NCBI GenBank assembly: GCA_038746285.1
Contig: JBCDKT010000044.1
Span: forward strand, 1-33,803
Source: Bacteroidota bacterium
GTDB taxonomy: Bacteria; Bacteroidota; Rhodothermia; Rhodothermales; JANQRZ01
Length of the DNA stretch: 33,803 nt
Reading direction: 5' to 3'
In this document: one piece after another, positions 1 through 28,919 of the stretch
Layout: each line of letters begins with the position of its first letter
Numbering within the stretch: position 1 is the first letter of the stretch
Made by a program: the position numbers and the translations under genes
Notes under the pieces: generated by a model
What the model saw: only the letters and a program-made list of their open reading frames with translations
Databases searched by the model: none
Told to the model about the DNA's origin: nothing

Positions 1-819
1 CCCGAGCGCCGTCGTCGCGTGGAGCGTCGCGCACCCGCCGGGGTGGCCCGTCGCCCAGGCGTCCAAGAGGTGGAGCGCCGCCTCGTCGCGGACCTCGCCC
101 ACGACGATTCGGTCGGGCGTGCAGCGGAGCGTGTGCCGGACGAGGTCGGCGAGCGACACGTCGTCGGAGGTTCGGAGCTGCAAGTGGTCGTCGGCCGCGC
201 ACTGGAGCTCGCCCGTGTCCTCCAGGACCACGATCCGCTCCTCGGGGAACAGGTCGGTCATCTCCTTCAAGAGCGCGTTGCAGAGCGTCGTCTTGCCCGA
301 TCCGGTCCCTCCGCAGACCAGGATGTTCTCGTGGGCCACGACGGCGTCGCGGAGCGCGGTCCGCTGTTTTGCCGTCATCACGGTGGGGACGTAGCTGTCG
401 AGGTCGAACACGCGCGAGGCCCGCTTGCGGATCACGAAGCACGAGGCCTCCGCCAGTGGCGATAGGAAGCCCTGGAGGCGGGCGCCCCCGAACGTGGCGT
501 CGGGGAGCTCGGCCTGGACGGTCGGCGTGCCGCCGTGGAGCGCGTCGCCGTGGAAGGCGGCCACGGCGTGCAGGAACTGCTCAACGCGGGCGGCGCGGAG
601 CTGGACGCCCGCGAGCACCTTGCCCCGTGAGTGCGTGTCGAGACGCAGCCGGCCGTCGCCGTTGACGTAGACCTCGGTTACGTCGTCGTCGGCGAAGGCC
701 TCGACGACGCGCGGGCCGAGGTACCGCTCCATGAGCTCGCGGTAGCGGCCCTCACGCCCCGCTTCGGTGCTCCCGTCGGCGCCGGCCGGGGTCTGTTGAG
801 GGCGGGAGGACGTGGGCAC
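1..819 (-). CDS. trbB: TrbB/VirB11-like conjugation ATPase (partial, C-terminus beyond window)
   Basis: Secretion-type AAA ATPase that would power DNA transfer or pilus assembly on the cytoplasmic face of a type IV secretion system. The minus-strand frame is open from a GTG at 819 to the window edge. It shows a Walker A motif (GGTGSGKTT, Lys about residue 176 from the GTG), an acidic VLEDTGEL segment, an RTSD segment, and a GEVRDEAALHLLDAWATGHP stretch typical of the VirB11/TrbB/GspE family. An alternative ATG lies at 732; the GTG adds a low-complexity N-terminus, so the start is uncertain. TraF lies 117 bp upstream on the same strand, as in RP4-like mating-pair genes. Only about 273 residues are visible; the family usually has over 300. 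The family call is firm; the symbol is by analogy. Confidence 0.85.
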   Translation of the reverse strand, partial: MPTSSRPQQTPAGADGSTEAGREGRYRELMERYLGPRVVEAFADDDVTEVYVNGDGRLRLDTHSRGKVLAGVQLRAARVEQFLHAVAAFHGDALHGGTPTVQAELPDATFGGARLQGFLSPLAEASCFVIRKRASRVFDLDSYVPTVMTAKQRTALRDAVVAHENILVCGGTGSGKTTLCNALLKEMTDLFPEERIVVLEDTGELQCAADDHLQLRTSDDVSLADLVRHTLRCTPDRIVVGEVRDEAALHLLDAWATGHPGGCATLHATTALG

Positions 820-936: not shown

Positions 937-1515
937 TCAGTCCTCCGTCCAGAGCGGCCGGAGCCGTTCGAGGACGACGCGGACGGGGCCTGCGTAGCGG
1001 GAGTCGATCGACGTGGGCACCCGCCCCGAGTGAAGCCAGTACTCGCCAGGTCCGAGGACGCGCACCCCGAGTTCGGGCCGGACGCGCCGTCCCGCACGGT
1101 CGCGGACGAGCGGCGCGCTCGACGGCAGGAGCCTCCCCCCTACCCAGACGCCGCTGCGGTCGACGCGGACGGTGTCGCCTGGGAGGCCCGCGGCCGGCTT
1201 CGCGAGCGGGCGGACGCCGTTGGGGCGACCGGTGCCTCCGGGACACCGCCCGTTCGTCCAGTACCGGCCGAGACGTTGGATCGCTGCCGTGTCCGGGCAC
1301 GCGGCCACCAAGTCGCCCCGTGCGACCGGGCGCTCTCCCAGTGCCGAGGCGATGTAGAGCCCTCTCGGAAGGCTGGGCGTGGTGTTGACGCGGACGCCGA
1401 GCAGTGTCCCCACCGCCACGACGAGCACGGCTGTGCCGAGCGCAACGGACCACAGACGCAGGCGGCGCGCCCAACGGGCGTCCTGGCAGCGCGGTACTCC
1501 ACGTTCTTCTAGCAT
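937..1515 (-). CDS. traF: TraF-like S26 peptidase of conjugative transfer
   Basis: Membrane serine peptidase of the signal peptidase I clan; in RP4-type systems TraF matures and cyclises the pilin. The 192-aa protein has one N-terminal membrane segment (about residues 22-42). It then has NTTPSLPRGLY with the likely catalytic Ser48, PLAKPAAGLPGD with the likely general-base Lys106, and a C-terminal SIDSRYAGPV box, which is diagnostic for TraF. The length fits the family. The ATG at 1515 lies inside a cluster of CTAGNNN heptads that also occur around parA, so its transcription may answer to the partition regulator. It is transcribed toward the TrbB-like gene and is probably co-transcribed with it. 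Confidence 0.85.
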   Translation of the reverse strand: MLEERGVPRCQDARWARRLRLWSVALGTAVLVVAVGTLLGVRVNTTPSLPRGLYIASALGERPVARGDLVAACPDTAAIQRLGRYWTNGRCPGGTGRPNGVRPLAKPAAGLPGDTVRVDRSGVWVGGRLLPSSAPLVRDRAGRRVRPELGVRVLGPGEYWLHSGRVPTSIDSRYAGPVRVVLERLRPLWTED

Positions 1516-1666: not shown

Positions 1667-2452
1667 GTGCGCGTCATCGCCTTCAGCAACCTCAAGGGCG
1701 GCTCGTCCAAGACGACCTCCTCGCTCGCCGTCGCGGCCGAACTGGCTCGTCGTGGCCGTCGCGTCTTGCTAGTCGATCTCGACCCGCAGGCGACGCTGAC
1801 CAAGTCGGCCGGGCTCGACCCGTCCCACGCCGCGGCGCAGTACCTCAAGGGCGAGATCGAAGCCGAGGCTGCCGTGCTCCGCCCCGCGGGGCTCTGGGAC
1901 AAGCCGCTCGCCGAGAACGGCGGCGCGCTCCACCTCGTCCCGGCCAGCCGCCAGCTCGTCCAGTTCGAGGGCCAGGCCGTCGCCCGGCTCGCCAACCGGC
2001 TCGTCGCGCTGCTCGACGCCGTCGAGGCGGACAACGACTTCGTCGTCATCGACTCGCCGCCCCAGGCGTCGGCGCTCGTCACGGCCACGCTCGCGTCCGC
2101 CGACGAGGTCTACGTGCCCGTCGCGTCGGGGCGCGGCGCGCTCGACGGGCTCGTCGACGTCGTCGAGCTCTCCAAGCGGTTCGGGACGACGCCGGTCTCA
2201 GGCGCGTTCGCGACGCGCGTCAACGTGTCGAGCCACCACGACCTCGACCTCGCCGAGTATGTCGCGCAGCAGATCACAGGCCCAGACGGGGAAGGGGGGC
2301 TCAAGACCTACATCCGGGAGACCGTCCGCGTCCGTGAGGCCGAGATGGCACGCGTCCCGCTTCCGTTCTACGACCCCTCGTCGACGGCGGCCCAGGACTA
2401 TGCCGCGCTGGCCGACGAGATCGAGGCGCGGCCGTCGCCGCGGATCGTGTAG
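1667..2452 (+). CDS. parA: ParA-family plasmid partition ATPase
   Basis: Deviant Walker A ATPase that positions plasmid copies on the nucoid. The 261-aa protein starts almost directly with the ATPase fold: KGGSSKTTSS (Walker A, signature Lys10 and Lys15), DLDPQATLT (A-prime) and VVIDSPPQ (Walker B). It lacks the N-terminal helix-turn-helix of type Ia ParA, so it is the short type Ib/delta kind, whose partner normally does the DNA binding and autoregulation. The start is GTG with a C-rich leader and no Shine-Dalgarno sequence. The partner gene follows after 33 bp, and heptad arrays flank parA on both sides. Confidence 0.92.
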   Translation: MRVIAFSNLKGGSSKTTSSLAVAAELARRGRRVLLVDLDPQATLTKSAGLDPSHAAAQYLKGEIEAEAAVLRPAGLWDKPLAENGGALHLVPASRQLVQFEGQAVARLANRLVALLDAVEADNDFVVIDSPPQASALVTATLASADEVYVPVASGRGALDGLVDVVELSKRFGTTPVSGAFATRVNVSSHHDLDLAEYVAQQITGPDGEGGLKTYIRETVRVREAEMARVPLPFYDPSSTAAQDYAALADEIEARPSPRIV

Positions 2453-5519: not shown

Positions 5520-5568
5520 GATCCAAAGAATCTCCTGACGTGAGCACTGGGAGGCGATGTGGTGACAT

Positions 5569-5590
5569 TGATTGAATCGCAAGTCAATCA
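5569..5590. promoter_or_regulatory. Inverted repeat TGATTGA-N8-TCAATCA
   Basis: Perfect 7-bp arms separated by 8 nt, in the AT-rich gap between the divergent lexA and methyltransferase genes, about 130 bp before the methyltransferase ATG. It looks like an operator for a dimeric regulator; which regulator is unknown. The rest of the 5520-5723 gap shows nothing further that could be named. Confidence 0.4.
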
Positions 5591-5723
5591 GAAACAGATG
5601 TGTAGGGGCTTGCAGTGTGGGCGAGCGGTTTACGCGGTGGATCCGGTCGGCGGTGCCACCGGCGCGATCCCCAGTGACGCACCGTCGGCACCGCCTACGC
5701 ATCGGACCTCCTCCACGCCTGCC

Positions 5724-6725
5724 ATGAACCACGATCTGAACCCGTCCAGCGCGACCGTAAGCCTCGCGCGATCCGTCCAGCTCTCCGTCGCCGAGTCGGC
5801 ACCGCTCTCGTCGGCCGACCTCTTCGCGCTCGCAGCCAACGCCTGCGGCGGGACGCTCGCCCAGGGCGCCTTCACGCCCCGCGACGCCTACGACGCCGCC
5901 GAGCTCGGGCTTCACCTCCACCTGCTCCGTACCGTCGGGCCGCTTCAGAAAGAGGCCTCTGGCGTCCGCGACGCGCTCGCCGAGGTCGAACGGCTCTCGG
6001 CGCTCCTGCCCAGCCAGACGCGCCGGACGGCTGCGCAGATCGACTACCAGCAGTTCTCGACGCCAGCTGCCTACGCCGGGTTGTGCGCCTGGATTGCCGG
6101 GGTGGGGGAGGGGCACCGCGTCCTGGAGCCCTCCGCCGGGACCGGCGCGCTCTGCGCGTTCGCCCTCGCGGCGGGCGCCACGGTCCACGCCAACGAGCTG
6201 TGCGGGCGCCGGGCCGACCTGCTGGCGGTGCTCCTTGCCGAGGCTGACCAGAACCCATCTCAGGCGCTCACACGCGAGAACGCCGACCACCTCGACGCCA
6301 TCCTTCCGCCAGAGGCCCGTGCCGACGTGGTGCTCATGAACCCGCCGTTCTCCCAGACCGCCGGGCGGCTCGGACGCCGCCGAATCCCGACGGTCGGGAC
6401 CGACCACGTGCTCCAGGCGCTCCGGCGCCTCGACCCGGGCGGGCGGCTGGTGGCCGTACTCAGCGCAGGCGTCCGCCGCGGCAAGCCAACGCATCGGCCG
6501 TTCTTCGAAGCCATTGAGGCCCACCCGTTCCAGCTCCGGGCCGACGTCGAGGTCGGCGGCGCCGTCTACCGCCCGTACGGGACCTCTGTGCGCACGCGCC
6601 TCCTCATCGTGGACCGAACGCCGGAACGCTCGTCCGGCGACGACGGGGACCGTGTGGAGGCCGTCGTCGAGAGCGTCGGCGACGCCGTGGCCGCTCTGGC
6701 GCCCGTCGGGCGAGCGCCCGCGTAG
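5724..6725 (+). CDS. N6-adenine DNA methyltransferase-like protein
   Basis: A 333-aa class I methyltransferase. The SAM-binding motif VLEPSAGTGALCAFA starts near residue 133, and the catalytic NPPF motif (VVLMNPPFSQ) is at about residues 206-209, the signature of amino-methylating DNA methyltransferases. The N-terminal 110 residues are helical and lack a recognised domain. The ATG at 5724 was chosen over an upstream ATG at 5559 because the intervening residues look non-coding and overlap a palindrome. No restriction endonuclease gene is adjacent. It resembles the methyltransferase part of large plasmid methyltransferase-helicase proteins, so an orphan methylase or anti-restriction role is possible. 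Confidence 0.8.
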   Translation: MNHDLNPSSATVSLARSVQLSVAESAPLSSADLFALAANACGGTLAQGAFTPRDAYDAAELGLHLHLLRTVGPLQKEASGVRDALAEVERLSALLPSQTRRTAAQIDYQQFSTPAAYAGLCAWIAGVGEGHRVLEPSAGTGALCAFALAAGATVHANELCGRRADLLAVLLAEADQNPSQALTRENADHLDAILPPEARADVVLMNPPFSQTAGRLGRRRIPTVGTDHVLQALRRLDPGGRLVAVLSAGVRRGKPTHRPFFEAIEAHPFQLRADVEVGGAVYRPYGTSVRTRLLIVDRTPERSSGDDGDRVEAVVESVGDAVAALAPVGRAPA

Positions 6726-6734
6726 CGGCGGGCG

Positions 6735-7730
6735 CTACGGGGCCACGACGTCCGCCCACCCACGCCCCGCGTCCCGCACCAACCCCAGCAGACGCCGCCG
6801 CCTCTGGCGCTGACGCTCCACCGACCGTGCGAACTCGGCTGCCTCCGCGACCGGCACCCCCCCCGCCGTCAGAGAACCGAGAGGAGGGGCCTCTGGCGCC
6901 TCGTCCGCCGCGTCCACGAACGACGCGCTGAGCGTGTCCAGGTACGCTCCCAGCACGCCCCGGAGTGGCTCCACTTCCGCCGGTGCCATCCGGGCCGAGA
7001 GTCCCACGCCGCCGGCGAGCAGGAGCAGCGCCTCGTCCAGGACGGCCAGCATGACGGGCGCCGAGGTCCGTCGCTCTTCGCTCTGGAAGAAGTGGAGAGC
7101 CGGGTACGCTTCGTGTCGCCTCCCGTGCGCCTCTACGAGCGGGACGAGGTTCGCCAGGTGGGCCGCCAGGCCGTCGAAGCCCGAGCCGGTCCAGGCGCCC
7201 GTCACGACGGCCTGGGGCGTCTCGCCCAGCGCGTGCGCCGCGCCGGCGAGCTGGCGCGCGCCCGTTACCGCCCCGACCACCTGGAGCACGTAGGTCACGA
7301 CGAGCGTCACAACCGCGAATCCGTTGAGCGCGGCGGCGCTCGCGACGACGCCCCAGCCGCCCGACCCCGGCGCCCACAGCGCGCCGAGCCCGAGCGTCCA
7401 GAGGTACGTGCCCACCACGTACGCCCGCGACCAAGCGTCAGCAGGCGCCCCCGTCTTCGGGTCTACGACCGAGGCGGGGTCGGCCGAGAAGACCAGCCAC
7501 CACCCCAGCCACAGCGCGCCGACCCACCACAAAAAAGCGGCCACGAGCGTGGTTGGCCCGACCCAGCCCGGCGCCCGGCCGGAGCCGACCGCCTTACCCA
7601 GCGTGTAGACGCCCCGCCCAATCCGGCCTGAGACCGGCCCCGCGCCCCGAGGCGCTACCGTCGTCCAGAGCGCGTCAACGAGCGCGAGCGCGACGACGGC
7701 CGCTCCCGCGAGTCCGAGGAGGGCAGGCAC
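6735..7730 (-). CDS. K+-channel-like membrane protein with altered filter
   Basis: A 331-aa protein with an N-terminal hydrophobic helix (about 2-24), a TM segment (about 57-83), a re-entrant pore-like stretch TYLWTLGLGALWAP (109-121) and a following TM helix (about 128-153). A long cytoplasmic helical C-terminus ends in basic residues. The order TM-pore-TM and the TLGLG core match bacterial two-TM potassium channels, in which the filter usually reads T-x-G-x-G-D. Here Asp is replaced by Ala117, so selectivity may differ or conduction may be lost. The gene begins 1 bp after the rhodopsin stop region on the same strand, so the two are almost certainly co-expressed. The channel call is from pattern, not a database hit. 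Confidence 0.65.
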   Translation of the reverse strand: MPALLGLAGAAVVALALVDALWTTVAPRGAGPVSGRIGRGVYTLGKAVGSGRAPGWVGPTTLVAAFLWWVGALWLGWWLVFSADPASVVDPKTGAPADAWSRAYVVGTYLWTLGLGALWAPGSGGWGVVASAAALNGFAVVTLVVTYVLQVVGAVTGARQLAGAAHALGETPQAVVTGAWTGSGFDGLAAHLANLVPLVEAHGRRHEAYPALHFFQSEERRTSAPVMLAVLDEALLLLAGGVGLSARMAPAEVEPLRGVLGAYLDTLSASFVDAADEAPEAPPLGSLTAGGVPVAEAAEFARSVERQRQRRRRLLGLVRDAGRGWADVVAP

Positions 7731-7731
7731 G

Positions 7732-8478
7732 TCAGGCGGGGTGCGTGCCGAGGGGTCGGCGTGGCACGGTAGTGCGGTGGTCGGCCTCGTCGCCCAGGAA
7801 CTCCCCGTTCTGCGCCACGGTCGCGAGCGTGTTCAGCGCCAGCAGCCCGAAGCCCACCTTCGCTACAACGTCCAGGGCCGTGAATAGCCCGGCCTCCCAC
7901 GTGTCACCGACCACGTCGAGGCCCTCGGGCGAGATCAGCCAGACAACCGGATACAGCGTCCACAGGAACACGTGGACCGTCACTAGGCGCCGGAACGCGC
8001 TGACCGACCGGGGGTGGGCCGCGACCGCGCTCCGCCGGTACGGTCCGAGGAGCATGTAGGCCACGCCGAGATAGGCCCCGCACGAGACGACATACCACGT
8101 AAGCGCCCGCGCGTCCTCGGGGAGCAGTGTCGCGATGAACCCGGTCCCGATCATGAACGTATTGGCCCCGATGAGCTGGGCCGCCAGCACGTTCCGGCTC
8201 GACGCGATGAGCGTGAGGTCGAGGAGCAGGAGCGGCGTCGTGAGCCCCCACGTGGCGTAGCGGACCCACGTCGTCTTCGTCCCGTCGGCCGAGACGAACG
8301 CCCCGAACCCCATCGCCATCGTGAGGTAGAGCGCGAACGCGACGAGGCAGATGAAGAAGTTCAGCGTGTAGAGGATCTCGCGCGGGCGGTGCTCAGCCCT
8401 CGCCGCGCCGAGCCCGAACACGACCGAGCCGAGCGCCATCGCCGCTGTGCCGATCCAGTACCACGTCGTCGCTGTCAT
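7732..8478 (-). CDS. Microbial (type 1) rhodopsin with T-T-D motif
   Basis: A 248-aa seven-helix retinal protein. Helix C reads WVRYATWGLTTPLLLLDL, giving Arg73, Thr76, Thr80 and Asp87 at the bacteriorhodopsin positions R82, D85, T89 and D96. Helix G reads LDVVAKVGFG with Asp203 (D212) and Schiff-base Lys207 (K216). LWTLYPVVWL of helix F is canonical. Glu residues near the extracellular release group (SPEG and TWEAGLF) are kept, while the D115 position is Asn106. The primary proton acceptor is thus Thr, as in halorhodopsins, but the cytoplasmic donor Asp is kept. An inward anion pump is the most likely function. It probably forms an operon with the channel-like gene; no carotenoid or retinal synthesis gene is in view. 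Confidence 0.93.
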   Translation of the reverse strand: MTATTWYWIGTAAMALGSVVFGLGAARAEHRPREILYTLNFFICLVAFALYLTMAMGFGAFVSADGTKTTWVRYATWGLTTPLLLLDLTLIASSRNVLAAQLIGANTFMIGTGFIATLLPEDARALTWYVVSCGAYLGVAYMLLGPYRRSAVAAHPRSVSAFRRLVTVHVFLWTLYPVVWLISPEGLDVVGDTWEAGLFTALDVVAKVGFGLLALNTLATVAQNGEFLGDEADHRTTVPRRPLGTHPA

Positions 8479-8607: not shown

Positions 8608-10383
8608 ATGCCGAACACGATCCGCCTCTTCATGTGGGGCTACCAGCGTGACTTCCAGATCTCGGCGAAAGTCTCTGCCGAGTCGCTGTTCGGCGCTCTG
8701 GACCCTGCCCTGGACCCCGAGGTCGTCCTCGTCGGTGGCCGACTCGGCTCCGAGAGCAACCGCCACCCCCTGTGCGTGGACCCCGAGGACGGCGACATCC
8801 CACTCGACCAGCTTGACGGCCTCGCCGAGCAGGTCGAACAGGCACAGCGGGACGACCCCGAGAACGAGATAATTCATTCGCACCCCGTCGCTGAGCAAAA
8901 CTGCAAGCGACGGGTCCGTTGGCGCGCGTTCTCCGAAGGCGTCGCGCGGACGCTGGCCCTGCACCGGCCCGACCGAGCCTTCTTCGCCTCGTTTCCCCAA
9001 CCCGTCGAACACCACCTCGTCACGTGCGTGCTCCACCTTGACCGGGGCGCTCTGGAGGCTCACCCTCGGCTCCACCAGGCCGACTACCTCCACCGGTTTG
9101 TCGTGCCGACCTCACTGGTCGAGGCCACAATCCAAACGTTCCTCGACAAATGCACCGACGAGCTCAGTCGGTCCGAGCCTGGCATGTGGCTCTCCGGACG
9201 GGGACCCGCCGATCTCCTGCGGAACGCGGGGCGCCGCCTCATGACCAACCCAGGTCGGCGCCTCGCCTGGGGCGGGCAGAACGACGACCTCTACGACCAA
9301 GTCGACGCGGTCTCAGCGCTTCGCTACGAGGGGGCCGAGGGGAAAGGGCGGCTCCTACTCACCGACAAGGACGGGACCGGGGTCCGGCGCACGCTGACGC
9401 TCGAGTCGCCGGTCCCGTTGAAGGCGGGCCGGGCGGCCCGCAAGCTCGTCGAGATGGCGACCTCCCAACTCGACCTCCTCGCCACGCCAGTAGCGGGGAT
9501 CTACGGGCTCGGCACGGCCGACCCGGACGATGACCCATCCGAGGAGCGCGTCTTCGAGGTCGTCTTTCTCAAAGGAAACGCCTGGGAGCTCCGCCACGCC
9601 GGGGTCCCGCTCATGCGCGTCGCCGGCGGCATCCCCGAGCTCCCACGCGACCCCATCCAGCGCGCCGACTTCGACACCTTGGTCAAACGGGTTCTCGGGT
9701 CGCCCGGTGACCTCGACCCAGACGCCCTGTGGACCGCCGTCGAGGCCGCGCGCCGCCAACGCCACGGGACTCTCCTCGTTGTCTCCACCGGGGCCGCGTC
9801 CGAGGCTGCCCGGCTCGCCGCCCAGAGCACGCCGGTCGAGCCGGTCACCCTCACGCCCGCTCTCGTCCACGCCGTCTCGGCCATCGACGGGGCGGTCCTC
9901 GTGGACGCCGCCGGGACCTGCCACGCCGTTGGTGCCATCCTGGACGGCATGGCGGCGGACGGCGGCGATCCCGGCCGAGGCGCCCGCTACAACTCGGCTC
10001 ACCGGTACGTCGAGACCGCCGCGCGCGACCTCGGCCACCGCACGCTAGCCGTCGTCGTCTCCGAGGACGGGATGGTCGATGCCCTCCCCGCACTGCGTCC
10101 CCAACTCGATCTCGCCGAGATCGAGACGCGGCTCGCAGACCTCCGCCACCACCGCGAGAACCCCCACGAGAGCCGGACGCTATTCTGTCGCACCGAGGCC
10201 TGGCTTCGCAAGCACGCCTTCTACCTCGACGCCGAGCAGTGCGAGGAGGTCAACGAGGCCGTCCGGAGTGTCCGCCAAGCGTGGCATGAGGCCGAGCCCA
10301 CAGCCATCCGGGTCGTGGACCGCCCGCTGGCACCCCACCCCGACTTCGATCAATCCTACCTCACGGAGACGGAAGAACCCTAG
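8608..10383 (+). CDS. Large protein with DisA_N-like (diadenylate-cyclase-related) nucleotide domain
   Basis: A 591-aa protein. The C-terminal part shows the layout of the DAC/DisA_N superfamily: IDGAVLVDAAGTCHAVGAIL with the DGA motif near residues 427-429, RGARYNSAHRY near 457-467, and VVVSEDGMVDALP near 481-492. In true diadenylate cyclases the second motif carries RHR; here it reads RYN, so it may bind or sense a nucleotide rather than make c-di-AMP. This resembles the divergent DACN-type sensor domains predicted for nucleotide-based conflict systems. The N-terminal 350 residues match nothing I recognise. A small reading frame follows at 10412. Function unknown. Confidence 0.7.
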   Translation: MPNTIRLFMWGYQRDFQISAKVSAESLFGALDPALDPEVVLVGGRLGSESNRHPLCVDPEDGDIPLDQLDGLAEQVEQAQRDDPENEIIHSHPVAEQNCKRRVRWRAFSEGVARTLALHRPDRAFFASFPQPVEHHLVTCVLHLDRGALEAHPRLHQADYLHRFVVPTSLVEATIQTFLDKCTDELSRSEPGMWLSGRGPADLLRNAGRRLMTNPGRRLAWGGQNDDLYDQVDAVSALRYEGAEGKGRLLLTDKDGTGVRRTLTLESPVPLKAGRAARKLVEMATSQLDLLATPVAGIYGLGTADPDDDPSEERVFEVVFLKGNAWELRHAGVPLMRVAGGIPELPRDPIQRADFDTLVKRVLGSPGDLDPDALWTAVEAARRQRHGTLLVVSTGAASEAARLAAQSTPVEPVTLTPALVHAVSAIDGAVLVDAAGTCHAVGAILDGMAADGGDPGRGARYNSAHRYVETAARDLGHRTLAVVVSEDGMVDALPALRPQLDLAEIETRLADLRHHRENPHESRTLFCRTEAWLRKHAFYLDAEQCEEVNEAVRSVRQAWHEAEPTAIRVVDRPLAPHPDFDQSYLTETEEP

Positions 10384-10411: not shown

Positions 10412-10723
10412 TTGTACGGTTGCAAGTGGCCCTCCGCGCCCCCGTTCTTCGAACGTCGCCAGTTCCTCGCTCGGTTCGCTGGCACCGACGGCCCCACCGG
10501 TCCCGTCCAGATCGCCCTCGGCTATCCGTTCCTCACACCCGGAGACATCGTCGTCCACGGCGACGGGGCGGTCTCCGCCGCCGACGAGTTCTTCTGTGAG
10601 GCGCAGCGCCTAGAGACCCTACCCGACCGCGTACTCCTCCGCGCGCTCGGGTGGGCCGACGTCTCAGGCGCCCGGTCTGAGCGGGACCTCGACTGGGTTC
10701 GTCGTCCGAGCGCCGGACCTTAG
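10412..10723 (+). CDS. Possible small hypothetical protein after the nucleotide-domain gene
   Basis: An open frame of about 103 codons from a TTG at 10412 to TAG at 10721. The segment from RRQFLARFAG to LRALGWADVSGARSERD has coding-like composition with balanced acidic and hydrophobic residues, unlike antisense frames nearby. It begins 28 bp after the preceding stop and converges on the histidine kinase gene, overlapping its last bases. No ATG or GTG is available near the start, so the true start is uncertain. No family recognised; it could act with the upstream protein. Confidence 0.4.
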   Translation: MYGCKWPSAPPFFERRQFLARFAGTDGPTGPVQIALGYPFLTPGDIVVHGDGAVSAADEFFCEAQRLETLPDRVLLRALGWADVSGARSERDLDWVRRPSAGP

Positions 10724-12183
10724 GCGGTATCCAGGCAAGGCAGCGCCGCCCAGAACGTGGCCCCCTGCCCCGGCCCACCACTCTCGCACCCCACCTCGCC
10801 ACCGTACCCCTCGACGATGGCTTTGACGATCGCGAGCCCGAGCCCGCTCCCTGACTCGGCCTGGACCTCCGGCGTGTCGGCCCGGAAGAACCGGTCGAAC
10901 AGCCGCTCGCACGTGGCGTCGTCGAACCCCGGGCCGGAGTCCGTCACCTCGAGCCGGGCCGCGTCCAGGTGCCGCCCGTCCAGGTCCCGGTGACGCAGCG
11001 TGACGTGGACCCGGCCACCGGTCGGCGTGTACTTGACCGCGTTCGAGACCAGATTGTCGACGACCTGTGCGAGGGGGGCGGTCTCCGCCGCGATCCGGAC
11101 GTCGTCGTCGGCGTCGACCGTGAGGGACAAACCCTTGGCGTCGGCGTCGCTCCGCACCCGCTCGACGCGCTGGCGGACGAGCGCGCCGAGGTCGACGCGG
11201 GCGTCGGGCGTCCGGACGAGCGACTCGGCGCGGGCGAGCTCGAGGAGGCCCTGAACCGTCCCCGTCATCTCGGCTACGTCCTCGACGACCCGGCCCAGCG
11301 TCTCGCGGTAGGCCTCCGGCTCGCGCTCGCGGCGGAGCGCGACCTCGGCCTCGCTCCGGAGCGTCGCCAGCGGCGTCATCAGCTCGTGGGCGGCGTTCGC
11401 CGTGAACCGCCGCTCGCGCGCGACCGACGCCTCCAGCCGGGCGAGGAGCCCGTTGAACGTCTCGGCCAGGTCCGTCAGCTCGTCGCGCGTCTCGAACTAC
11501 GACGGCAGCCGGCCGCCCAGCCGCGCCCCGTCGCCGGCCATCCGGTCGGCCGCCTCGGTCAGCACGGCCACGGGCCGGAGCGCGCGGCGCGCGAGCCACC
11601 ACCCTGCCCCGAGCGCGAATAGCACGCTCAGCGCCACGCCGAGCGCGAGCATCCGCCCCAAGTCGCGGAGCTCGCGGTGGCGGCTCCACTCGATCCCCGT
11701 GACCTCGACGTACCCCGCCACGTCCCCGCCCGGACCCCGGACCGGCGCGACGAGCGACCGCGCGGGCTCGTCGTCCCAGGTCCGGCTCAGGCGCAGGACG
11801 CCGCCCTCGGGGAGCGCGACGCCCAGCGCCGGGTGCCGCCCGACGTTCTCCGATTGGTAGGTCACCCGGCCCTCGGGCGAGAGCACGCGGACGTACGTCC
11901 CGCTCGGTCCGTCGAGCCGGGTCGCCACGGCCTCCGTTTCCTCTAGCGCCCCGGCGTCCACGCCGTCCGGCCCGACCGTGAGGAGCGGCTCGATCACGCC
12001 CCACTCGTGGTCGAGGTGGCGGTCGAACGAGCGGTGCGCGGCGGCGTGGAACCCGACGTAGCAGAACACGGCGAACGCGCTCAGGAGCAGGAGCAGCGTC
12101 AGCGCGTACCACAGCGCAAGCCGGGCCGAGATGGGGAGGGTGCGGAGGCGGGCCATGCCGGAAGAACGCGACGCGGCGCTCAC
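10720..12183 (-). pseudogene. cusS: CusS-like sensor histidine kinase interrupted by in-frame TAG
   Basis: Membrane sensor kinase: TM1, a periplasmic domain of about 110 residues, TM2, HAMP, DHp and HATPase. The frame is open across the full length except for a single TAG at 11497-11499, inside the HAMP region between GGRLPS and FETRDELTDLAE. Downstream the frame resumes unchanged: phospho-acceptor His in NAAHELMTPLATL (His266; Met replaces the usual Arg of HELRTPL), N-box DNLVSNAVKYT, and G boxes DSGPGFDD and GSGLGLAIVKA. The intact product would be about 487 aa. It starts with GTG overlapping the TGA of the response regulator (an ATG at 12156 is an alternative). A nonsense mutation, readthrough, two separate polypeptides or a base error could each explain it. 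Confidence 0.85.
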
Positions 12184-12938
12184 GTCGCGCCACTGGCGGT
12201 CTTACCAGGCACCATCCGGTAGCCGACGCCCCGGATCGTCTCGACGCGCGGGGCGTCGGCCGCGCCGGACGCCTTGACCGCGTCGTCGAGCCGCTGGCGG
12301 AGCCCGCTCACGGTCACGTCGAGGGCGTTGTCGGTGACGTAGAGCGCGTCGCCCCAGACCCGCTCGGCGAGCACCGTCCGCGAGAGGGCCGCGTCGGCGC
12401 TCCGCATGAACACCTCCAGCATCGCGTACTCCTTCGGGCGGAGGTTCAGGACGGCCTCGCCGGCTGTTCCGATCATCGTCGCCCGTCGGCGCTCGCCGTC
12501 GAGCGCGAGGGGGCCGACGCGGACGACCCGCTCCACGTCCGAGAGCGGGGGGCGGCGCAGGAGCGCCCGGAGCCGGGCCACGAGCTCCTCGAACGCGAAT
12601 GGCTTCGGTAGGTAGTCGTCGGCGCCGGCGTCGAGCCCCGCGACCCGGTGCTCGACGTCCGAGAGCGCCGTCAGCATCAGGACGGGCTGGTCTTTCCCCG
12701 CGGCGCGGACGCGCTCGACGAGGGTCTTCCCGTCGCCCCTCGGCAACCGCCAGTCGACGACGAAGGCGTCGTAGCCGTTCGCGAGCGCGAGCCGCTCGCC
12801 CTCCTCGGCGTCGCCCGCCACGTCGACGCGGTACCCCTCCTCCTCCAACCCGCGGCGGACGGAGTCGGCGAGTCGGGCCTCGTCTTCGATGAGCAGGACC
12901 CACATCGGGGCGTCGGGGGAGGGGAACGGGTCGGACAT
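12180..12938 (-). CDS. cusR: OmpR-family response regulator (CusR/CopR-like)
   Basis: A 252-aa two-component regulator. The receiver domain has acidic pocket IEDEA, phospho-acceptor Asp62 in FVVDWRLPRGDG, Thr90 in LMLTALSD and Lys112 in LPKPFAFEEL. A winged-helix output domain follows (LRPKEYAMLEVFMR, then VSGLRQRLDD and IRGVGYRM). The ATG at 12938 was preferred to one at 12971, because the latter would overlap a 20-bp palindromic element (12970-12989). With 12938 the element sits about 31 bp upstream, fitting autoregulation. Its gene is followed by the interrupted sensor kinase and is divergent from the copper genes. Copper/silver sensing is inferred from context. Confidence 0.88.
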   Translation of the reverse strand: MSDPFPSPDAPMWVLLIEDEARLADSVRRGLEEEGYRVDVAGDAEEGERLALANGYDAFVVDWRLPRGDGKTLVERVRAAGKDQPVLMLTALSDVEHRVAGLDAGADDYLPKPFAFEELVARLRALLRRPPLSDVERVVRVGPLALDGERRRATMIGTAGEAVLNLRPKEYAMLEVFMRSADAALSRTVLAERVWGDALYVTDNALDVTVSGLRQRLDDAVKASGAADAPRVETIRGVGYRMVPGKTASGAT

Positions 12939-12969
12939 GCAATACCCACGTGGAGCGGACGGGACCGGC

Positions 12970-12989
12970 ACCTTAACGCCTTTTCAGGT
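12970..12989. promoter_or_regulatory. 20-bp palindromic element B (cusR / DUF2231 divergent promoter)
   Basis: Read on the minus strand it is ACCTGAAAAGGCGTTAAGGT. It lies about 31 bp before the response regulator ATG and 59 bp before a small plus-strand frame at 13049. It fits the ACCTGA-N8-TMAGGT consensus of seven sites in the window and could serve both divergent units. Confidence 0.65.
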
Positions 12990-14248: not shown

Positions 14249-14306
14249 CCAGGGACGCACATCCGTGCGCCCCGCGCGTACACCCCGAGCACCCGCCACC
14301 CCTCCG

Positions 14307-16241
14307 ATGGACCGCCGCCACTTTATCCGCAACGCCTCCGCCTTCGGCGCGCTCGCGGGCCTGAGCGCTCTCACGCCCGCCTGGGCACGCACCGGGCTCG
14401 CGCACGGTCCGCTCCGCCAGCCCGGCCTCGTGCCGACCGTCAAGCGGGACGGCCTGGTCGAGTATGACATCACGATCGACCGGACGCGGCTCGCGTTCGG
14501 GGGCCGGACCGGCACGGCCGTCACCATGAACGGGACGGTCCCCGGCCCGCTCCTCCGGTTCACCGAGGGCGACGAGGCCGTCATCCGCGTCCACAACCGG
14601 CTCGACGAGATGACGTCGGTCCACTGGCACGGGCTCATCTTGCCCAACGACCAGGACGGCGTGCCCCACGTCAACTTCCCCGGGATCGCGGCGCGGTCGA
14701 CGTTCGAGTACCGCTACCCGATCCGCCAGTTCGGGACCTACTGGTGCCACTCGCACTCGGCGTTCCAGGAGCAGCTCGGCCACTACGCCGCGCTCGTCAT
14801 CGACCCGGCCGGGCCGGAGCCCTACGCCTTCGACCGTGAGTACGTCGTCGTCCTCTCGGACTGGACGTTCGAGGACCCCCACGACGTGCTCGCCCACCTC
14901 AAGAAGCGGGCGAACTACTACAACTACCAGCGCCAGACCGTCGCCGGGCTCCTCTTGGGCGAGGGCATGAGCCTCGGCCAGCGACTCGACTGGGACCGGA
15001 TGCGGATGGACCCGACCGACATCGCCGACATCACGGGCGCCACCTACACGTTCCTCATGAACGGGCAGGCCCCCGACCCCGGGTGGTCCGGCCTGTTCCG
15101 GCCCGGCGAGCGCGTCCGGCTCCGGTTCGTGAACGCGAGCGCGCTCACGTTCTACGACGTCCGGCTCCCCGGCCTCCCGATGACCGTCGTCCAGGTCAAC
15201 GGCCAGCACGTCCAGCCGGTCGAGACCGACGAGTTCCGGATCGGGATCGCCGAGACCTACGACGTCGTCGTCGAGCCGGGCGACCGGGCCTACACCGTCT
15301 TCGCCGAGCCCATGGACCGCTCGGGCTACGCGAGGGGGACGCTCGCCCCGCGCGCGGGCATGACGGCGCCCGTCCCGGAGCGCCGCGAGCGCCCGTCGCT
15401 CACCATGATGGACATGGGGATGGACCACGGCGAGATGGGCCACGAGGGCATGGACATGTCGGGCGCGGCCCCCGGTGCCGCGGCGGGCGGCATGGCCGGA
15501 ATGGACCACGGCATAGATCACGCCCAGACGGAGGGCATGGACCACTCCGGCATGACGATGGCCGCGGCAGGAGGGGAGATGGCGATGCCTGGCCAGGACC
15601 GGTCCGGCCTCCGCCCGCCTGGCACGCTCCCCGAGGTCACGATGCACGGCCCCGACGACCACGGGATCGCCAACGCGATGGCCCCCATGCAGACCCGCTC
15701 CCGGCTCCACGAGCCCGGCGTCGGGCTGGGGAATGACGGCCGCCGCGTCCTCGTCTACACCGACCTCCGGTCGCTCCACCCCGAGCCCCGCCGGGCGCCC
15801 GACCGCGAGGTCGAGCTCCACCTCACCGGCAACATGGAGCGGTACATGTGGGGGATCGACGGGAAGACCTATACCGAGGACCCGCTCATCCCCCTCGTCT
15901 ACGGCGAGCGGCTCCGGCTCACCATGGTCAACGACACCATGATGAACCACCCGATGCACCTCCACGGCATGTGGATGGAGCTCGAGAACGGCCAGGGCGA
16001 CCACATCCCCCGCGTCCACACCGTCGTCGTCAAGCCGGCCGAGCGGCTCTCGCTCCTGGTCGAGGTCGACGCGCTCGGCCCGTGGGCCTTCCACTGCCAC
16101 GTCCTCTACCACATGGACCTCGGCATGTTCAGGGTGGCTATGGTCCAGCGGCCCGACGACTGGGACGCCGAGCGGCTGGCCGAGATGTACCCGCAGGGCC
16201 TCCCGCCCGGCTTCGGGCGTCCCGACCTCGCCCGAGGCTAG
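14307..16241 (+). CDS. copA/pcoA: CopA/PcoA-type periplasmic multicopper oxidase
   Basis: Periplasmic enzyme that oxidises Cu(I) and sequesters copper. The 644-aa protein has a twin-arginine-like leader (DRRHFIRNASAF, then a hydrophobic stretch to PAWA). All four copper-ligand motifs are visible: HWHGL (106-110), WCHSHS (146-151), HPMHLHGMW (548-556) and HCHVLYHMDLGMF (from 596), with type 1 Cys597 and axial Met. Between domains is a long Met/His-rich loop with repeats such as GMDHGEMGHEGMDM and GMDHSGMTM, as in the CopA resistance family. An in-frame start at 14265 exists; 14307 gives the proper leader. It heads a run with copB and a Met-rich protein. Confidence 0.94.
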   Translation: MDRRHFIRNASAFGALAGLSALTPAWARTGLAHGPLRQPGLVPTVKRDGLVEYDITIDRTRLAFGGRTGTAVTMNGTVPGPLLRFTEGDEAVIRVHNRLDEMTSVHWHGLILPNDQDGVPHVNFPGIAARSTFEYRYPIRQFGTYWCHSHSAFQEQLGHYAALVIDPAGPEPYAFDREYVVVLSDWTFEDPHDVLAHLKKRANYYNYQRQTVAGLLLGEGMSLGQRLDWDRMRMDPTDIADITGATYTFLMNGQAPDPGWSGLFRPGERVRLRFVNASALTFYDVRLPGLPMTVVQVNGQHVQPVETDEFRIGIAETYDVVVEPGDRAYTVFAEPMDRSGYARGTLAPRAGMTAPVPERRERPSLTMMDMGMDHGEMGHEGMDMSGAAPGAAAGGMAGMDHGIDHAQTEGMDHSGMTMAAAGGEMAMPGQDRSGLRPPGTLPEVTMHGPDDHGIANAMAPMQTRSRLHEPGVGLGNDGRRVLVYTDLRSLHPEPRRAPDREVELHLTGNMERYMWGIDGKTYTEDPLIPLVYGERLRLTMVNDTMMNHPMHLHGMWMELENGQGDHIPRVHTVVVKPAERLSLLVEVDALGPWAFHCHVLYHMDLGMFRVAMVQRPDDWDAERLAEMYPQGLPPGFGRPDLARG

Positions 16242-16276
16242 CCAACCCCGGGCGGCCCTCTCCCGCCGCCCGGCCC

Positions 16277-16315
16277 GCCCCGCCGCCCCCGTTCCGCACC
16301 TCGGGGCGGCGGGGC
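16277..16315 (+). terminator. Strong GC hairpin between multicopper oxidase and copB
   Basis: Perfect 13-bp arms (GCCCCGCCGCCCC and GGGGCGGCGGGGC) with a 13-nt loop, followed by a short pyrimidine run (TCCTTCC) and then the copB ATG at 16338. Being inside an apparent operon it is more likely an attenuator or mRNA-stability hairpin than a full stop. Confidence 0.55.
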
Positions 16316-16337
16316 TCCTTCCTGACTCCGACGACCC

Positions 16338-17108
16338 ATGCTCCGCTCCCTCGCTCTCGCCCTGCTGGCGCTTGCCGCCAGCGCGCCCGTAACCGCCCAG
16401 GACGATCCGCCCCCGTTCCCCGAGTACCCCGACTTCCGGCCCGGCGCGGTCGCCGCGGCCGACCGGGACCTCTACTCGCTCGCGCTCTTGGACATCTTCG
16501 AGGTGGCCCCGGCCGCGTCCGGCGTCCCCGCTCGGCTGGAGGGGTTCTACCGGATCGGGACCGACTACAACCGGCTCTTCGTCCGGGCTGAGGGCGAGGG
16601 GCTGATCTCGGAGGCCGAAGGCGAGGCCGAGGTCCAAGCCCTTTACAGCCGCCTCGTCACCGAGTACTTCGAGGCTCAGGCGGGCGTCCGCCTCGACACC
16701 GAGTTCGGCGAGGGCGGCCTGCGCGCCCGGCCCCAGCTCGCCGTCGGGCTCGAAGGGCTCGCGCCCTACTTCTTCGAGGTCGAGCCCTTCCTGTTCCTGT
16801 CCTACAAGGGCGACCTCTCGGCCCGGTTCGAGGGGTCCTACGACCTCCTCATCACGCAGCGCCTCGTGCTCCAGCCCGAGGCCGAAGTGACCGTCGCGCT
16901 CCAGGAGGTCGAGGACTGGGGCGTCGGGACGGGCCTCAACGCTGTCGAGGCGGGCCTCCGGCTCCGCTACGAGGTCGAGCGCGAGGTGGCCCCCTACGTT
17001 GGGTTCAGCGTCCTCCAGCGGTTCGGCGGCGCGGCCGACTTCGCCCGCGCGGAGGGCGAGCCGACGTCGGAGGGCCTCTTCGTCGTCGGCGTCCGCCTCT
17101 GGCGCTGA
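16338..17108 (+). CDS. copB/pcoB: CopB/PcoB copper-resistance outer-membrane protein
   Basis: A 256-aa protein with a signal peptide (residues 1-20, ending in VTAQ) and a predicted beta-barrel of alternating strands: LEGFYRIGTDYNRLFVRAEG, YFEAQAGVRLDT, YFFEVEPFLFLSYKGDLSAR, SYDLLITQRLVLQPEAEV, VEAGLRLRYEVEREVAPYVG. It ends in an aromatic-Arg terminus (VRLWR). Spacing, strand pattern and the place after CopA match the CopB family of the cop/pco system. The usual Met/His-rich N-terminal segment of CopB is absent here; such residues are instead concentrated in the next gene's product. Confidence 0.88.
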   Translation: MLRSLALALLALAASAPVTAQDDPPPFPEYPDFRPGAVAAADRDLYSLALLDIFEVAPAASGVPARLEGFYRIGTDYNRLFVRAEGEGLISEAEGEAEVQALYSRLVTEYFEAQAGVRLDTEFGEGGLRARPQLAVGLEGLAPYFFEVEPFLFLSYKGDLSARFEGSYDLLITQRLVLQPEAEVTVALQEVEDWGVGTGLNAVEAGLRLRYEVEREVAPYVGFSVLQRFGGAADFARAEGEPTSEGLFVVGVRLWR

Positions 17109-17144
17109 CCCCTACCTGCACCCTCTCCCAAGACCCCGACTCCG

Positions 17145-18179
17145 ATGACCCGCTCTCTCTTCCTCGTCGCCGCGCTCGTCGCCGCCCCCGCCGCAGTCGC
17201 CCAGCAGCACGGCGAGCACTCCCAGGTGGACCACGGCCAGATGGACCACTCCCAGATGCAGGGCATGGACCACGCCGGCATGGACCACGACGCCCTCATG
17301 GCCCTCCACATGCGCATGATGGCCGACCCCGAGATCCACGCCGCCATGCGCGCCGACGCCGAGATGCGGGCGCTCATGGCCGACGTGATGCCCGACATGG
17401 ACCACGGCGCGATGGGCCACGAGGGGGTGGACCACGAGGGCATGAGCCACGGCCAGATGAACCCCGAGTCCATGATGACTCAGATGCGTGAGCGCATGGG
17501 CGCGATGACCGAGGCCGAAGACGCCGCGTTCATAGCCCGCTTCGAGTCCGTCCACCGCCGGCTCCTCGCCACACCGCCGGTCCACACGCGCGCGATGGCC
17601 GACCCCGAGCTCCGCCGGATGATGGAGGCCATGCCCGGAGGGATGCCCGGGATGGACGGCATGGACCACTCCGGCATGGACCGCGGCCAGATAAATCACT
17701 CCCAGATGCGGGGGATGGACCACGGCGCGATGGACCACTCCGGCGCCGACCACGCCGCGGGCGTCGCCCTCCAACGCCGCAACGCGGGCGCGACCCTCGG
17801 CGACGAGCGCCCGGCCACGCCCACCGTTGGGCAGGCCGAGTTCGACGCCTCCGAGACCGCCGACCGGTTCCACGCCGCCCTCGCCGCGGGCGACCGCCAG
17901 AGCGTCGAGTCCCTCCTCACGCCCGACGCCGTGGTCCTGGAGGGCGGGCGCGCCGAGGCCCGAAACGAGTACCTCGGGGGCCACTTCGCCCGCGACGTCG
18001 CCTTCCTCGCCGATGCCCAGCCGGAGCCGATCTTCCGCCGCACGACCGTTGCGGGCGACGCCGCGTGGGTCGCCTCGACGCAGCGGATCGGTGACGCCAC
18101 GATGGCCGAGCTCCTGGTGATGGAGCGGACCGACGGGGGCTGGCGGGTCTCCGCCGTCCACTGGTCGTCGGCGCGGTAA
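17145..18179 (+). CDS. Secreted Met/His-rich protein with C-terminal NTF2-like (DUF4440-type) domain
   Basis: A 344-aa protein with a signal peptide (about 1-20, ending AAVAQ). A long N-terminal half is packed with MDH, HxxM and MxxM motifs (DHGQMDHSQM, GMDHAGMDHD, AMGHEGVDHEGM, GMDHSGMDRGQ), suited to binding Cu(I)/Ag(I). The last 115 residues (ASETADRFHAALAAGDRQSV to WRVSAVHWSS) read like a SnoaL/DUF4440 NTF2-like domain. It sits 36 bp after copB and 3 bp before the next gene, inside the periplasmic copper operon. It may be a periplasmic copper sponge or chaperone. The combination of a metal-binding region and an NTF2-like fold is unusual; the fold call is by eye. Confidence 0.75.
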   Translation: MTRSLFLVAALVAAPAAVAQQHGEHSQVDHGQMDHSQMQGMDHAGMDHDALMALHMRMMADPEIHAAMRADAEMRALMADVMPDMDHGAMGHEGVDHEGMSHGQMNPESMMTQMRERMGAMTEAEDAAFIARFESVHRRLLATPPVHTRAMADPELRRMMEAMPGGMPGMDGMDHSGMDRGQINHSQMRGMDHGAMDHSGADHAAGVALQRRNAGATLGDERPATPTVGQAEFDASETADRFHAALAAGDRQSVESLLTPDAVVLEGGRAEARNEYLGGHFARDVAFLADAQPEPIFRRTTVAGDAAWVASTQRIGDATMAELLVMERTDGGWRVSAVHWSSAR

Positions 18180-20669: not shown

Positions 20670-22859
<2,190 letters not shown>

Positions 22860-23039: not shown

Positions 23040-23453
23040 ATGCGTACTCAGGACATGCTCTCGAAGCACCCCAACCCCTCCGAGCACCTCGACAAGATCG
23101 TCGCGCTCGTCAACAGCGCGTTCGCCTGCGAGCAGTGCTGTACGAGCTGCGCCGACGCCTGCCTCGACGAGGATGGCGACATGGACCTCCGGTACTGCAT
23201 CCGGACCAACCTCGACTGCGCCGACATCTGTGCCACGACGGGCCGCGCGCTCTCGCGCCAGACGCAGCCGAACGCCAAGGTCCTCCGCGCCCAGCTCGAG
23301 GCCTGCGTCGCCGCCTGCGACGCCTGCGCCGACGAGTGCTCGAAGCACGCCGATATGCACGACCACTGCCGCGTGTGCATGGAGTGCTGCCGCGAGTGCT
23401 CCAAGGCCTGCCAGGCCCTCCTCGACGCCATGTCCCAGGGCGCGGCGGCCTAG
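23040..23453 (+). CDS. csp: Cys-rich four-helix-bundle copper-storage protein (Csp/DUF326-like)
   Basis: A 137-aa protein with 18 Cys residues spaced along predicted helices: FACEQCCTSCADAC, DCADIC, EACVAACDACADEC, and HCRVCMECCRECSKAC. This is the pattern of copper storage proteins, which bind many Cu(I) ions inside a four-helix bundle. No signal peptide is seen, so it fits the cytosolic Csp3 type. It is preceded by palindromic element E and followed by a hairpin terminator, so it is likely made at high level on its own when copper is present. Confidence 0.9.
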   Translation: MRTQDMLSKHPNPSEHLDKIVALVNSAFACEQCCTSCADACLDEDGDMDLRYCIRTNLDCADICATTGRALSRQTQPNAKVLRAQLEACVAACDACADECSKHADMHDHCRVCMECCRECSKACQALLDAMSQGAAA

Positions 23454-26260: not shown

Positions 26261-26281
26261 GATATGGGGGGCGTTCACCGG

Positions 26282-26314
26282 CACAAACGCGGCGGCCCGT
26301 CGAACGTTACCGAG
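26282..26314 (-). promoter_or_regulatory. ECF-type promoter of the sigma-HMA gene
   Basis: On the minus strand: CTCGGTAACG, 14 nt, then GCGTTTGT. GGTAAC to CGTTTG spacing is 16 bp, normal for ECF sigma factors. It ends 21 bp before the ATG at 26260. The same flanks recur before copA with a diverged spacer. The -35 overlaps the copA stop codon. Autoregulation by the sigma factor is inferred. Confidence 0.65.
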
Positions 26315-28919
26315 CGGCCACCGCGGCGGAGCCGACTGTTGGTGGTATGAAGCGCCGCAGGCGGAGCGCGTTCGTCAGCACGAACACCGACGACAGGCCC
26401 ATCGCCGCCGCGCCGAGCACGGGCGAGAGCAGCACGCCGAGCGCCGGGTACAGCACGCCCGCCGCGACCGGGATCAGCACGACGTTGTAGGCAAAGGCCC
26501 AGAACAGGTTTTGCTTGACGTTGCGGAGCGTGGCCGCCGAGAGCGCCTGGGCCTCGACGAGCGCCGTGAGGTCGCCGCGCATGAGCACCACGTCGGCGGC
26601 CTCGATGGCGACGTCGGTCCCGGTCCCAATCGCGACGCCGACGTCGGCCTGGGCGAGCGCGGGGGCGTCGTTGATTCCGTCGCCGACGAACGCCACGTGC
26701 AACGGGCGTCCGCCGCGTCCGCCCTCGCCTTGGAGATCGCGCACGGCCTGGGCCTTGTCGGCGGGGAGCACCTCGGCGAGCACCTCGTCGATGCCGAGGC
26801 GCCGCGCGATGGCCTCGGCCGTGGCCCGGTTGTCGCCGGTGACCATGGCGACGCGGAGCCCGGCGTCGTGGAGCGCGTCGATGGCCGCGGGCGTCGTCGC
26901 CTTGACCGGGTCGGAGACGGCGAGGGCCGCAACGAGCACGCCGTCGACGGCCGCGTAGAGCGGCGTCTTGCCCTCACCCGCGAGGGCGCCAGAGGCCGCG
27001 GCGAGAGGCGCCACGTCGAGCCCGACCCGGGCCATGAACCGGTCGGCTCCGACCTCGACGCGGCGGCCCTCGACCGTCCCGCGCACGCCGAAGCCGGGCA
27101 CGGCCACGAAGTCGGACGCCGCCGGCAGGTCGATACCGCGCTCGTCCGCCGCGCGCACGATGGCCGCCGCGACCGGGTGCTCGCTCGGCACCTCGACCGC
27201 GGCTACAAGCCGGAGCAGTTCCGTTTCGTCCAGCCCGGCCTCTGGCGCTAGCGCCACGTCGGTCAGCGTCGGGCGGCCCTCGGTGAGCGTCCCCGTCTTG
27301 TCGAGCGCGACCACGTCAGCCTCGGACAGCGTCTGCAACGCCTCGCCCTTGCGGAAGAGCACGCCCAGCTCGGCCGCCTTCCCGGTCCCCACCATCACCG
27401 AGACGGGCGTCGCGAGCCCCATCGCGCACGGGCACGCGATGATGAGCACCGAGACCGCGGCCACGAGCGCGTAGGTCAGCGCCGGGCTCGGCCCGACGGC
27501 GAGCCAGACGCCGAACACGAGCGCGGCGATCACGAGCACGATGGGCACGAACACGGCGACCACGCGGTCCGCCAGCGCCTGGATCGCGGGCCGCGACGCC
27601 TGGGCGTCCTCGACGAGCCGGACGATCTGGGCGAGCACGGTGTCGGCCCCGACGCGCGTCGTCCGCATGAGCAGCGCCCCGGCCTGGTTGACGGTCCCGC
27701 CGACGACCTCCGCGTCCGCGCCCTTCTCGACCGGGACGGGCTCGCCGGTCACCATCGACTCGTCGACGTAGCTCGTGCCCTCGGTGACCACGCCGTCCAC
27801 CGGCACCTTCTCGCCCGGCCGCACGCGGACGACGTCGCCCACGGCTACGTCCTCGATGGGGACCTCGGCCTCGACTGGGCCGGTGCCCGGTCCACCGTCG
27901 CGGACCACGCGGGCCGTCTTTGCCCTCAGCCCGAGGAGCGCGCGGACGGCGTCCGACGTCTGGCCCTTGGCGCGGGCCTCGAACCACTTGCCGAGCAGGA
28001 TGAGCGTGATGATCGTCGCCGACGCCTCGTAGTACACGTGGACCGCGCCCTCGGGGAGCACGCCCGGCAGGAACGTCGCGACGACGGAGTACCCGTAGGC
28101 CGCCGACGTGCCGAGGGCGACGAGCGTGTTCATGTCGGGCGAGCCGTGGCGGGCCGCCGCCCACCCGGCGCGGTAGAATCGGAGGCCTGGTCCAAACTGG
28201 ACCGCTGTCGCCAGCGCGAACGCCACGAGCCAGCGCGTCTGCATCGGGACGAGCCCGTCGATCCAGGCCATCCCACCGGGGACCGCCATCGGCACCATCT
28301 CCATGAGGAACAGCGGGAGCGTGAGCCCGGCGGCCCACAGGAGTCGACGCCGCAGCCGCTGGCGGTCGAGCTCTCGCGCCTGGCGCTCAGCGTCCTCCGT
28401 CGTCGTCCCGCCCACGGCCTCGACGACGTCGTAACCCGTCTTCCGGACGGCCTCGTAGAGCGCCTCGACGTCGGTCCCGGCGGCGTAGCGGACGCGGGCG
28501 CGCTCGGTCGCCAGGTTCACTGACGCCTCGACCACGCCGTCGGCGCCTTGCAGCGCACGCTCGACGCGCCCGACGCACGCCGCGCACGTCATCCCACCCA
28601 CGGCGAAGCTCACCTCCTCGGTCCGCACGTCGTAGCCCGCTCGCTGGACGGCCTCGGCGAGCGCCAGAGGCGTCGTCTCGGCCGCGTCGAACTGGACGGT
28701 CGCCCGCTCGGTCGCGAGGTTGACCGTCGCCTCGTGGACGCCGGGGACCTTCGACAGCGCCTTCTCGACACGGCCCGAGCACGCGGCGCACGTCATGCCC
28801 TCGACGCCCAGCGTCGCGTGCGAGAGCGGCCGGGGCGGGCCGACTACGGCACCGTCGCCGGACGGGCTGGCGTCGGCGGCAGGCGGGTCGGAGGGCAGGG
28901 CAGGGGAGGGGTGGGGCAT
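26307..28919 (-). CDS. copA: P1B-1-type Cu(I)-exporting ATPase CopA (CPC motif, two HMA domains)
   Basis: An 870-aa copper pump of the inner membrane. Two N-terminal HMA domains carry GMTCAAC (Cys44/47 and Cys112/115). Eight transmembrane helices follow, with the Cu(I) motif CPC at 496-498 ([13 protein letters not shown]), actuator [12 protein letters not shown], phosphorylation Asp540 in [14 protein letters not shown], and hinge [12 protein letters not shown]-terminal YN (FAYNVVLIP) and MxxSS (MGLSSV) motifs fit P1B-1 pumps. The first about 35 residues are Pro/Ala-rich. Transcription probably starts at the ECF-type promoter 21 bp upstream, and the sigma-HMA gene follows, so pump and copper sensor form one unit. 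Confidence 0.96.

Follow-up and report, generated by a model that had tools for sequence, protein, structure and literature searches.

The window, which is the whole stretch of DNA analyzed here (33,803 nucleotides from a bacterium of the order Rhodothermales; contig JBCDKT010000044.1, assembly GCA_038746285.1), contains a gene for a light-driven pump rhodopsin immediately followed by a gene for a K+-channel-like protein. The question raised by this locus is whether the two genes form a dedicated system for light-coupled ion movement, or whether they are neighbors for some other reason.

The rhodopsin and channel-like genes

The pair and the filter segment of the channel-like protein are located as follows.

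7732..8478, minus strand: light-driven anion-pump rhodopsin of the BacHR/MrHR-SyHR-RmHR clade with a TTD motif, orthologue of R28HR2 (assigned by PF01036, PDB matches and motif)
6735..7730, minus strand: K+-channel-like protein with the order TM, TM-pore(TLGLG)-TM, cytoplasmic C-terminal domain (hydropathy and alignment of relatives)
7380..7397, minus strand: TLGLGA codons, i.e., an intact TLGLG followed by Ala at the position equivalent to KcsA Asp80 (alignment)

The original prediction gave a spacing of about 1 bp, and this was correct: both genes lie on the minus strand, with a one-base gap in the junction sequence GCC TGA C GTG CCT. The two genes are likely co-transcribed in the window strain. 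A scan for promoters and terminators, for which the sigma-70 consensus covers this phylum poorly, found nothing between the genes or upstream of the pair. Third-position G+C was coding-like in both the rhodopsin gene (0.92) and the channel-like gene (0.88).

The rhodopsin ORF (8478-7732, 248 aa) matched PF01036 (Bac_rhodopsin) with an E-value of 1.9e-49 and contains the Schiff-base, retinal-binding Lys (Lys207) in the conserved KVGF context. Its motif is TTD, with a non-acidic residue, Thr, at the position of BR Asp85, and its top PDB matches were the cyanobacterial chloride pumps MrHR (53% identity) and SyHR. A Rubrivirga MAG, SW42617_bin_3, encodes a rhodopsin that is 85% identical to the window protein. 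It has been reported that R28HR2 of R. marina is also a TTD rhodopsin, and its helix-C segment, TWxLTTPLLLLD, is nearly that of the window rhodopsin (Table 1, PMC5877348). Published accounts of its activity disagree: no activity was observed in E. coli (PMC5877348), whereas the R. marina TTD BacHR was later shown to be a light-driven Cl- pump (577 nm) with photocurrents in mammalian cells (PMC7979833). Judged from its sequence, the window rhodopsin is the orthologue of R28HR2, a known kind of TTD light-driven Cl- pump; by analogy with this orthologue, it would pump Cl- inward in the light. The host genome also encodes a blh-type retinal-forming enzyme, and a second rhodopsin with the NDQ motif found in known Na+ pumps (L005; G000:C6:95704-96471).

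A K+-channel-like family with an intact filter

The channel-like ORF (7730-6735, 331 aa) has GTG at 7730 as its first in-frame start codon. Hydropathy placed TM segments at residues ~1-20, ~60-82 and ~126-157, with the TLGLGA pore loop at 112-117. Relatives were collected from the phylum, the order and plasmids of haloarchaea, Alphaproteobacteria, Bacillota and Bacteroidota, and aligned over their full length. Both hydropathy and this alignment bear out the proposed TM-pore-TM order, and the description of the locus as a light-driven anion pump adjoining such a protein was right. Three filter residues (T112, G114 and G116) were invariant in 20/20 aligned sequences, as were H206, P210, H213 and W325 in the C-terminal domain. 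It is speculative that this domain, with its two invariant histidines, acts as a sensor of metal or another ligand.

The window protein itself had no match to any Pfam or NCBIfam model, and its membership in the channel family was assigned because its relatives match, although it does not match alone. The PF07885 (Ion_trans_2) cutoff was passed by relatives L011, L020, L022, L023 and L059; among the scanned relatives outside the window subfamily, 5 of 8 were above the cutoff and two more were just short of it. For the nearest relatives, L053 gave an E-value of 0.96 and L054 no match. Family members are annotated in their records as "potassium channel family protein" or "ion channel". When the family profile was searched against PDB, TREK, TWIK and TOK pores scored ~1e-5, a level equalled by low-complexity TAL-effector repeats; because of this contamination, only the pore region was interpreted. 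An AlphaFold single-sequence model was too poor for use (pLDDT 52.8, pTM 0.34). A scan of viral contigs found no relatives.

The original prediction located Ala within the filter and read it as a clear departure from selective K+ channels. We found that TLGLG lies intact between two TM segments and that Ala is one position beyond it, at the KcsA Asp80 equivalent, so the altered residue is outside the filter. At this position the family has Asp in most members, Gln in two and Ala in the window subfamily; since Ala replaces the residue that follows TLGLG, the filter is not lesioned. Ala and a one-residue insertion (GALWAP) are common to the subfamily, which consists of the window protein and its counterparts in genomes G421, G423 and G424. 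A GLG filter is not unusual either, as yeast TOK1 has TVGLGD in its first pore. The idea that Ala makes the filter non-selective was rejected on these grounds. Most likely, the window protein would form a tetrameric K+-permeable pore.

A variable slot between kinase and channel

A check suggested along with the original prediction was a survey of rhodopsin neighborhoods in relatives, and this survey found no conserved linkage to the channel. What is conserved is the order response regulator, histidine kinase, slot, channel and convergent methylase, which was found in G421 and G424 and partly, across contigs, in G423 (apparently the same MAG as L024), with different contents in the slot. G424 has response regulator, kinase, channel and convergent methylase in succession, with the channel, 84% identical to that of the window, in the same place; neither a rhodopsin nor blh was found when both were searched in this 93%-complete genome. 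In G421 the regulator and kinase are followed by the rhodopsin, an unassigned ORF, gluconate dehydrogenase subunit 3, a GMC oxidoreductase, a CMAS-type methyltransferase, the channel and the methylase. Rhodopsin and channel are therefore four genes (~4.7 kb) apart in this genome, within a co-directional string in which the start codon of the channel and the stop codon of the methyltransferase share the bases GTGA. The intervening genes (L099 9360-14048), including the gluconate dehydrogenase subunit with its TAT signal, are not present between the window pair. G423 has the two ends of the G421 arrangement on different contigs. The window kinase and rhodopsin are separated by an oppositely oriented DAC-type gene, and the channel gene directly follows the rhodopsin gene. 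These differing contents in G424, G421 and the window indicate a variable slot, and tight rhodopsin-channel pairing was found in the window genome only.

Other rhodopsin loci gave a similar picture. A family channel was found near none of 26 cyanobacterial halorhodopsins (flanks up to 10 kb), and it was likewise missing from the other halorhodopsin-like loci examined in Rubrivirga- and Rubricoccus-type genomes, among them the G231 TSA halorhodopsin locus (Rubricoccus-type) and a second such locus in G421. These neighborhood surveys led us to reject a general rhodopsin-channel operon. Within the order, 6 of 10 channel-positive genomes carry a rhodopsin, which is slightly above expectation (P=0.06) and represents a weak co-occurrence at the genome level. 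Taken together, the co-directional string in G421 and the adjacency in the window make a selected rhodopsin-channel association possible.

Association of the channel family with copper resistance genes

Beyond the phylum, the channel survey rests on plasmids. Of 15 annotated plasmid neighborhoods from Bacteria and haloarchaea, 13 had copper or heavy-metal genes (metal P-type ATPase, multicopper oxidase, four-helix copper-binding protein, plastocyanin/azurin or HMA protein) no more than 5 kb from the channel, versus 1 of 12 control stretches taken from other parts of these plasmids (Fisher p ~1e-5 to 7e-5; several plasmids are related and not independent, so the true strength of the association is below this value). 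For example, in four haloarchaeal plasmids (Natrinema pellirubrum, Halomontanus, Haloterrigena and Natronosalvus) the channel gene begins 20-55 bp after a metal P-type ATPase gene. Chromosomal relatives in G286 and G108 adjoin ORFs that by eye are of the DUF305 kind, and in G414, DUF326 and DUF305 genes are found between a homologous two-component system and a channel-family member. No annotated rhodopsin was present at the plasmid channel loci examined. This strong, repeated association shows that the channel family belongs with copper resistance genes rather than with rhodopsins.

Besides, the G421 island contains a second channel-family member (L100 9613-10638; G421:C5:130561-131526), which lies between a metal P-type ATPase and a homologue of the small Cys-rich protein of the window and has no counterpart at the corresponding place in the window. 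Titles and abstracts in a limited search of the open-access literature offered nothing relevant on K+ channels of copper islands or on rhodopsin-channel clusters, and no role for K+ flux in copper islands.

The island carried by the window

The remaining genes place the pair in a copper resistance island beside conjugation and partition genes.

1-819, minus strand: VirB11-like secretion ATPase
937-1515, minus strand: S26 peptidase of the TraF kind
1667-2452, plus strand: ParA
5559..6725, plus strand: N6-methylase-like protein (MTS domain), the convergent channel neighbor kept in G421, G423 and G424
8608..10383, plus strand: DACNG-DACNH-DAC sensor/nucleotide-cyclase-type protein, between kinase and rhodopsin in the window genome only
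10720..12201, minus strand: island sensor histidine kinase, split by an in-frame TAG at 11497-11499
12180..12971, minus strand: OmpR-type response regulator, which looks intact
14265..18179, plus strand: copper resistance block, with the next three genes
14265-16241, plus strand: multicopper oxidase
16338-17108, plus strand: CopB
17145-18179, plus strand: DUF4440/SnoaL-like protein
20670-22859, plus strand: metal P1B-type ATPase
23040-23453, plus strand: small Cys-rich protein, homologous to the DUF326 copper-binding protein of G414
26307..28919, minus strand: second metal P-type ATPase, with two HMA domains
30849-32306, plus strand: CusB-type adaptor
32303 on, to 33803, plus strand: start of a CusA-like RND pump (RND assignment by eye)

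A LexA gene is also found among the VirB11-like, TraF-like and ParA genes. The best NCBIfam match of the DAC-type protein was DS2_3_antiphage, at 563 bits just below the cutoff of 630. The kinase is one continuous frame in relatives L098, L099 and L024, and the TAG in the window is either a recent pseudogene mutation or an assembly error. An ECF-type sigma factor fused to a C-terminal HMA domain, possibly a metal-sensing sigma factor, is encoded at 25460-26284 on the minus strand.

Horizontal transfer was judged by comparison with RecA, GyrB and ParE. Compared with their counterparts in Rubrivirga-type genomes, which belong to another family, the rhodopsin, channel, kinase and regulator show ~79-92% identity, and the same genomes are less alike in RecA (72-73%), GyrB (78%) and ParE (73-75%). 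This difference supports horizontal transfer of the island proteins.

Explanations for the pair

The explanation we favor, with a probability of roughly 0.7, is that rhodopsin and channel are separable neighboring cargo of a mobile copper island, that the channel is a K+ pore aiding copper export, and that the tight pairing came from rearrangement of the slot. The rhodopsin would move Cl- into the cell in the light, as shown for R28HR2, and K+ flux through the channel may balance charge or set the membrane potential while electrogenic copper exporters work. The one-base spacing would have arisen by rearrangement of the slot that separates the channel gene from the conserved histidine kinase gene; this slot is empty in G424, holds the rhodopsin and four further genes in G421, and holds the DAC anti-phage-type gene and the rhodopsin in the window. 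Any light-driven KCl uptake would then be the additive effect of two independent proteins, with no dedicated complex. In the window strain, co-expression could match light-driven Cl- uptake with K+ entry, although this is unsupported by conservation. As a tentative and rather unlikely extension, the His-x3-Pro-x2-His channel family could be an unrecognized standard part of copper islands in Bacteria and Archaea, copper-gated or copper-induced, with one lineage joined to a light-driven Cl- pump such that light contributes to the control of membrane potential or KCl content under copper stress.

A second explanation is dedicated light-driven salt uptake, in which Cl- is pumped in, the membrane hyperpolarizes and K+ follows passively by way of the co-expressed channel, providing KCl for turgor or osmotic adjustment. 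The one-base spacing on the same strand, the published Cl- pump orthologue, the blh gene for retinal in the host and the intact TLGLG filter all agree with such a module. However, the slot exists without a rhodopsin in G424, four genes separate the pair in G421, RmHR-type and cyanobacterial halorhodopsin loci are without such a channel, and the channel family tracks copper genes, all of which make it unlikely. As a dedicated system, the light-coupled ion movement or light-controlled channel complex of the original prediction thus finds no backing in the relatives, where the linkage is missing or interrupted.

It is also doubtful that the TLGLGALWAP subfamily is a degenerate relative of K+ channels, non-conducting or non-selective, that serves as a sensor or scaffold. 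Such degeneration would be consistent with the Asp-to-Ala change, the inserted residue after the filter and the window protein's lack of a Pfam match of its own, but TLGLG and its flanking TM segments are 79-85% identical over four genomes, and the T, G and G of the filter are invariant. Finally, a physical complex or light-gated channel, resembling a bestrhodopsin made of two chains, is suggested by adjacency only and is very improbable, given that the channel is 84% conserved in G424 where no rhodopsin was found, that neither fusion nor conserved pairing was seen, and that the rhodopsin orthologue works alone.

With separable cargo of a copper island as the preferred reading, the question raised by the locus shifts from light-gated channels to copper resistance. 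In most cases examined (Alphaproteobacteria, Bacteroidota, Rhodothermales and haloarchaea), this K+-channel-like family is located in copper islands, often directly behind a copper P-type ATPase. In addition, a published optogenetic candidate Cl- pump rides on an apparently mobile metal resistance island, and such an island would be a tangible means of moving rhodopsins from one family to another.

Comparison with known systems

The closest known system is R28HR2 of Rubrivirga marina, which shares with the window rhodopsin the TTD motif, a near-identical helix-C segment, ~85% identity in Rubrivirga-type genomes, and an island in common that includes kinase, response regulator and methylase. 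The difference is that four genes separate rhodopsin and channel in the Rubrivirga-type genome G421, whereas the window pair is adjacent with a DAC-type gene upstream. MrHR and SyHR are of the same clade, with Thr at BR-85 and Asp at BR-96 and, for MrHR, 53% identity, but have TSD instead of TTD and are without a family channel in the flanks read. Bestrhodopsins, which are rhodopsin-bestrophin fusions, share the concept of linking a rhodopsin with an ion channel, whereas the window has separate genes, another channel family and no conserved pairing. The window protein differs from Ion_trans_2 (PF07885) K+ channels such as NaK, TREK/TWIK and TOK1 in being undetected by the Pfam model and in the Ala after its filter, and its family has an extra N-terminal TM segment and its own C-terminal domain with invariant H206, P210 and H213. 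It nevertheless has in common with these channels the TM-pore-TM order with TxGxG, and several family members score above the Pfam cutoff while the family profile matches the pores of TREK, TWIK and TOK.
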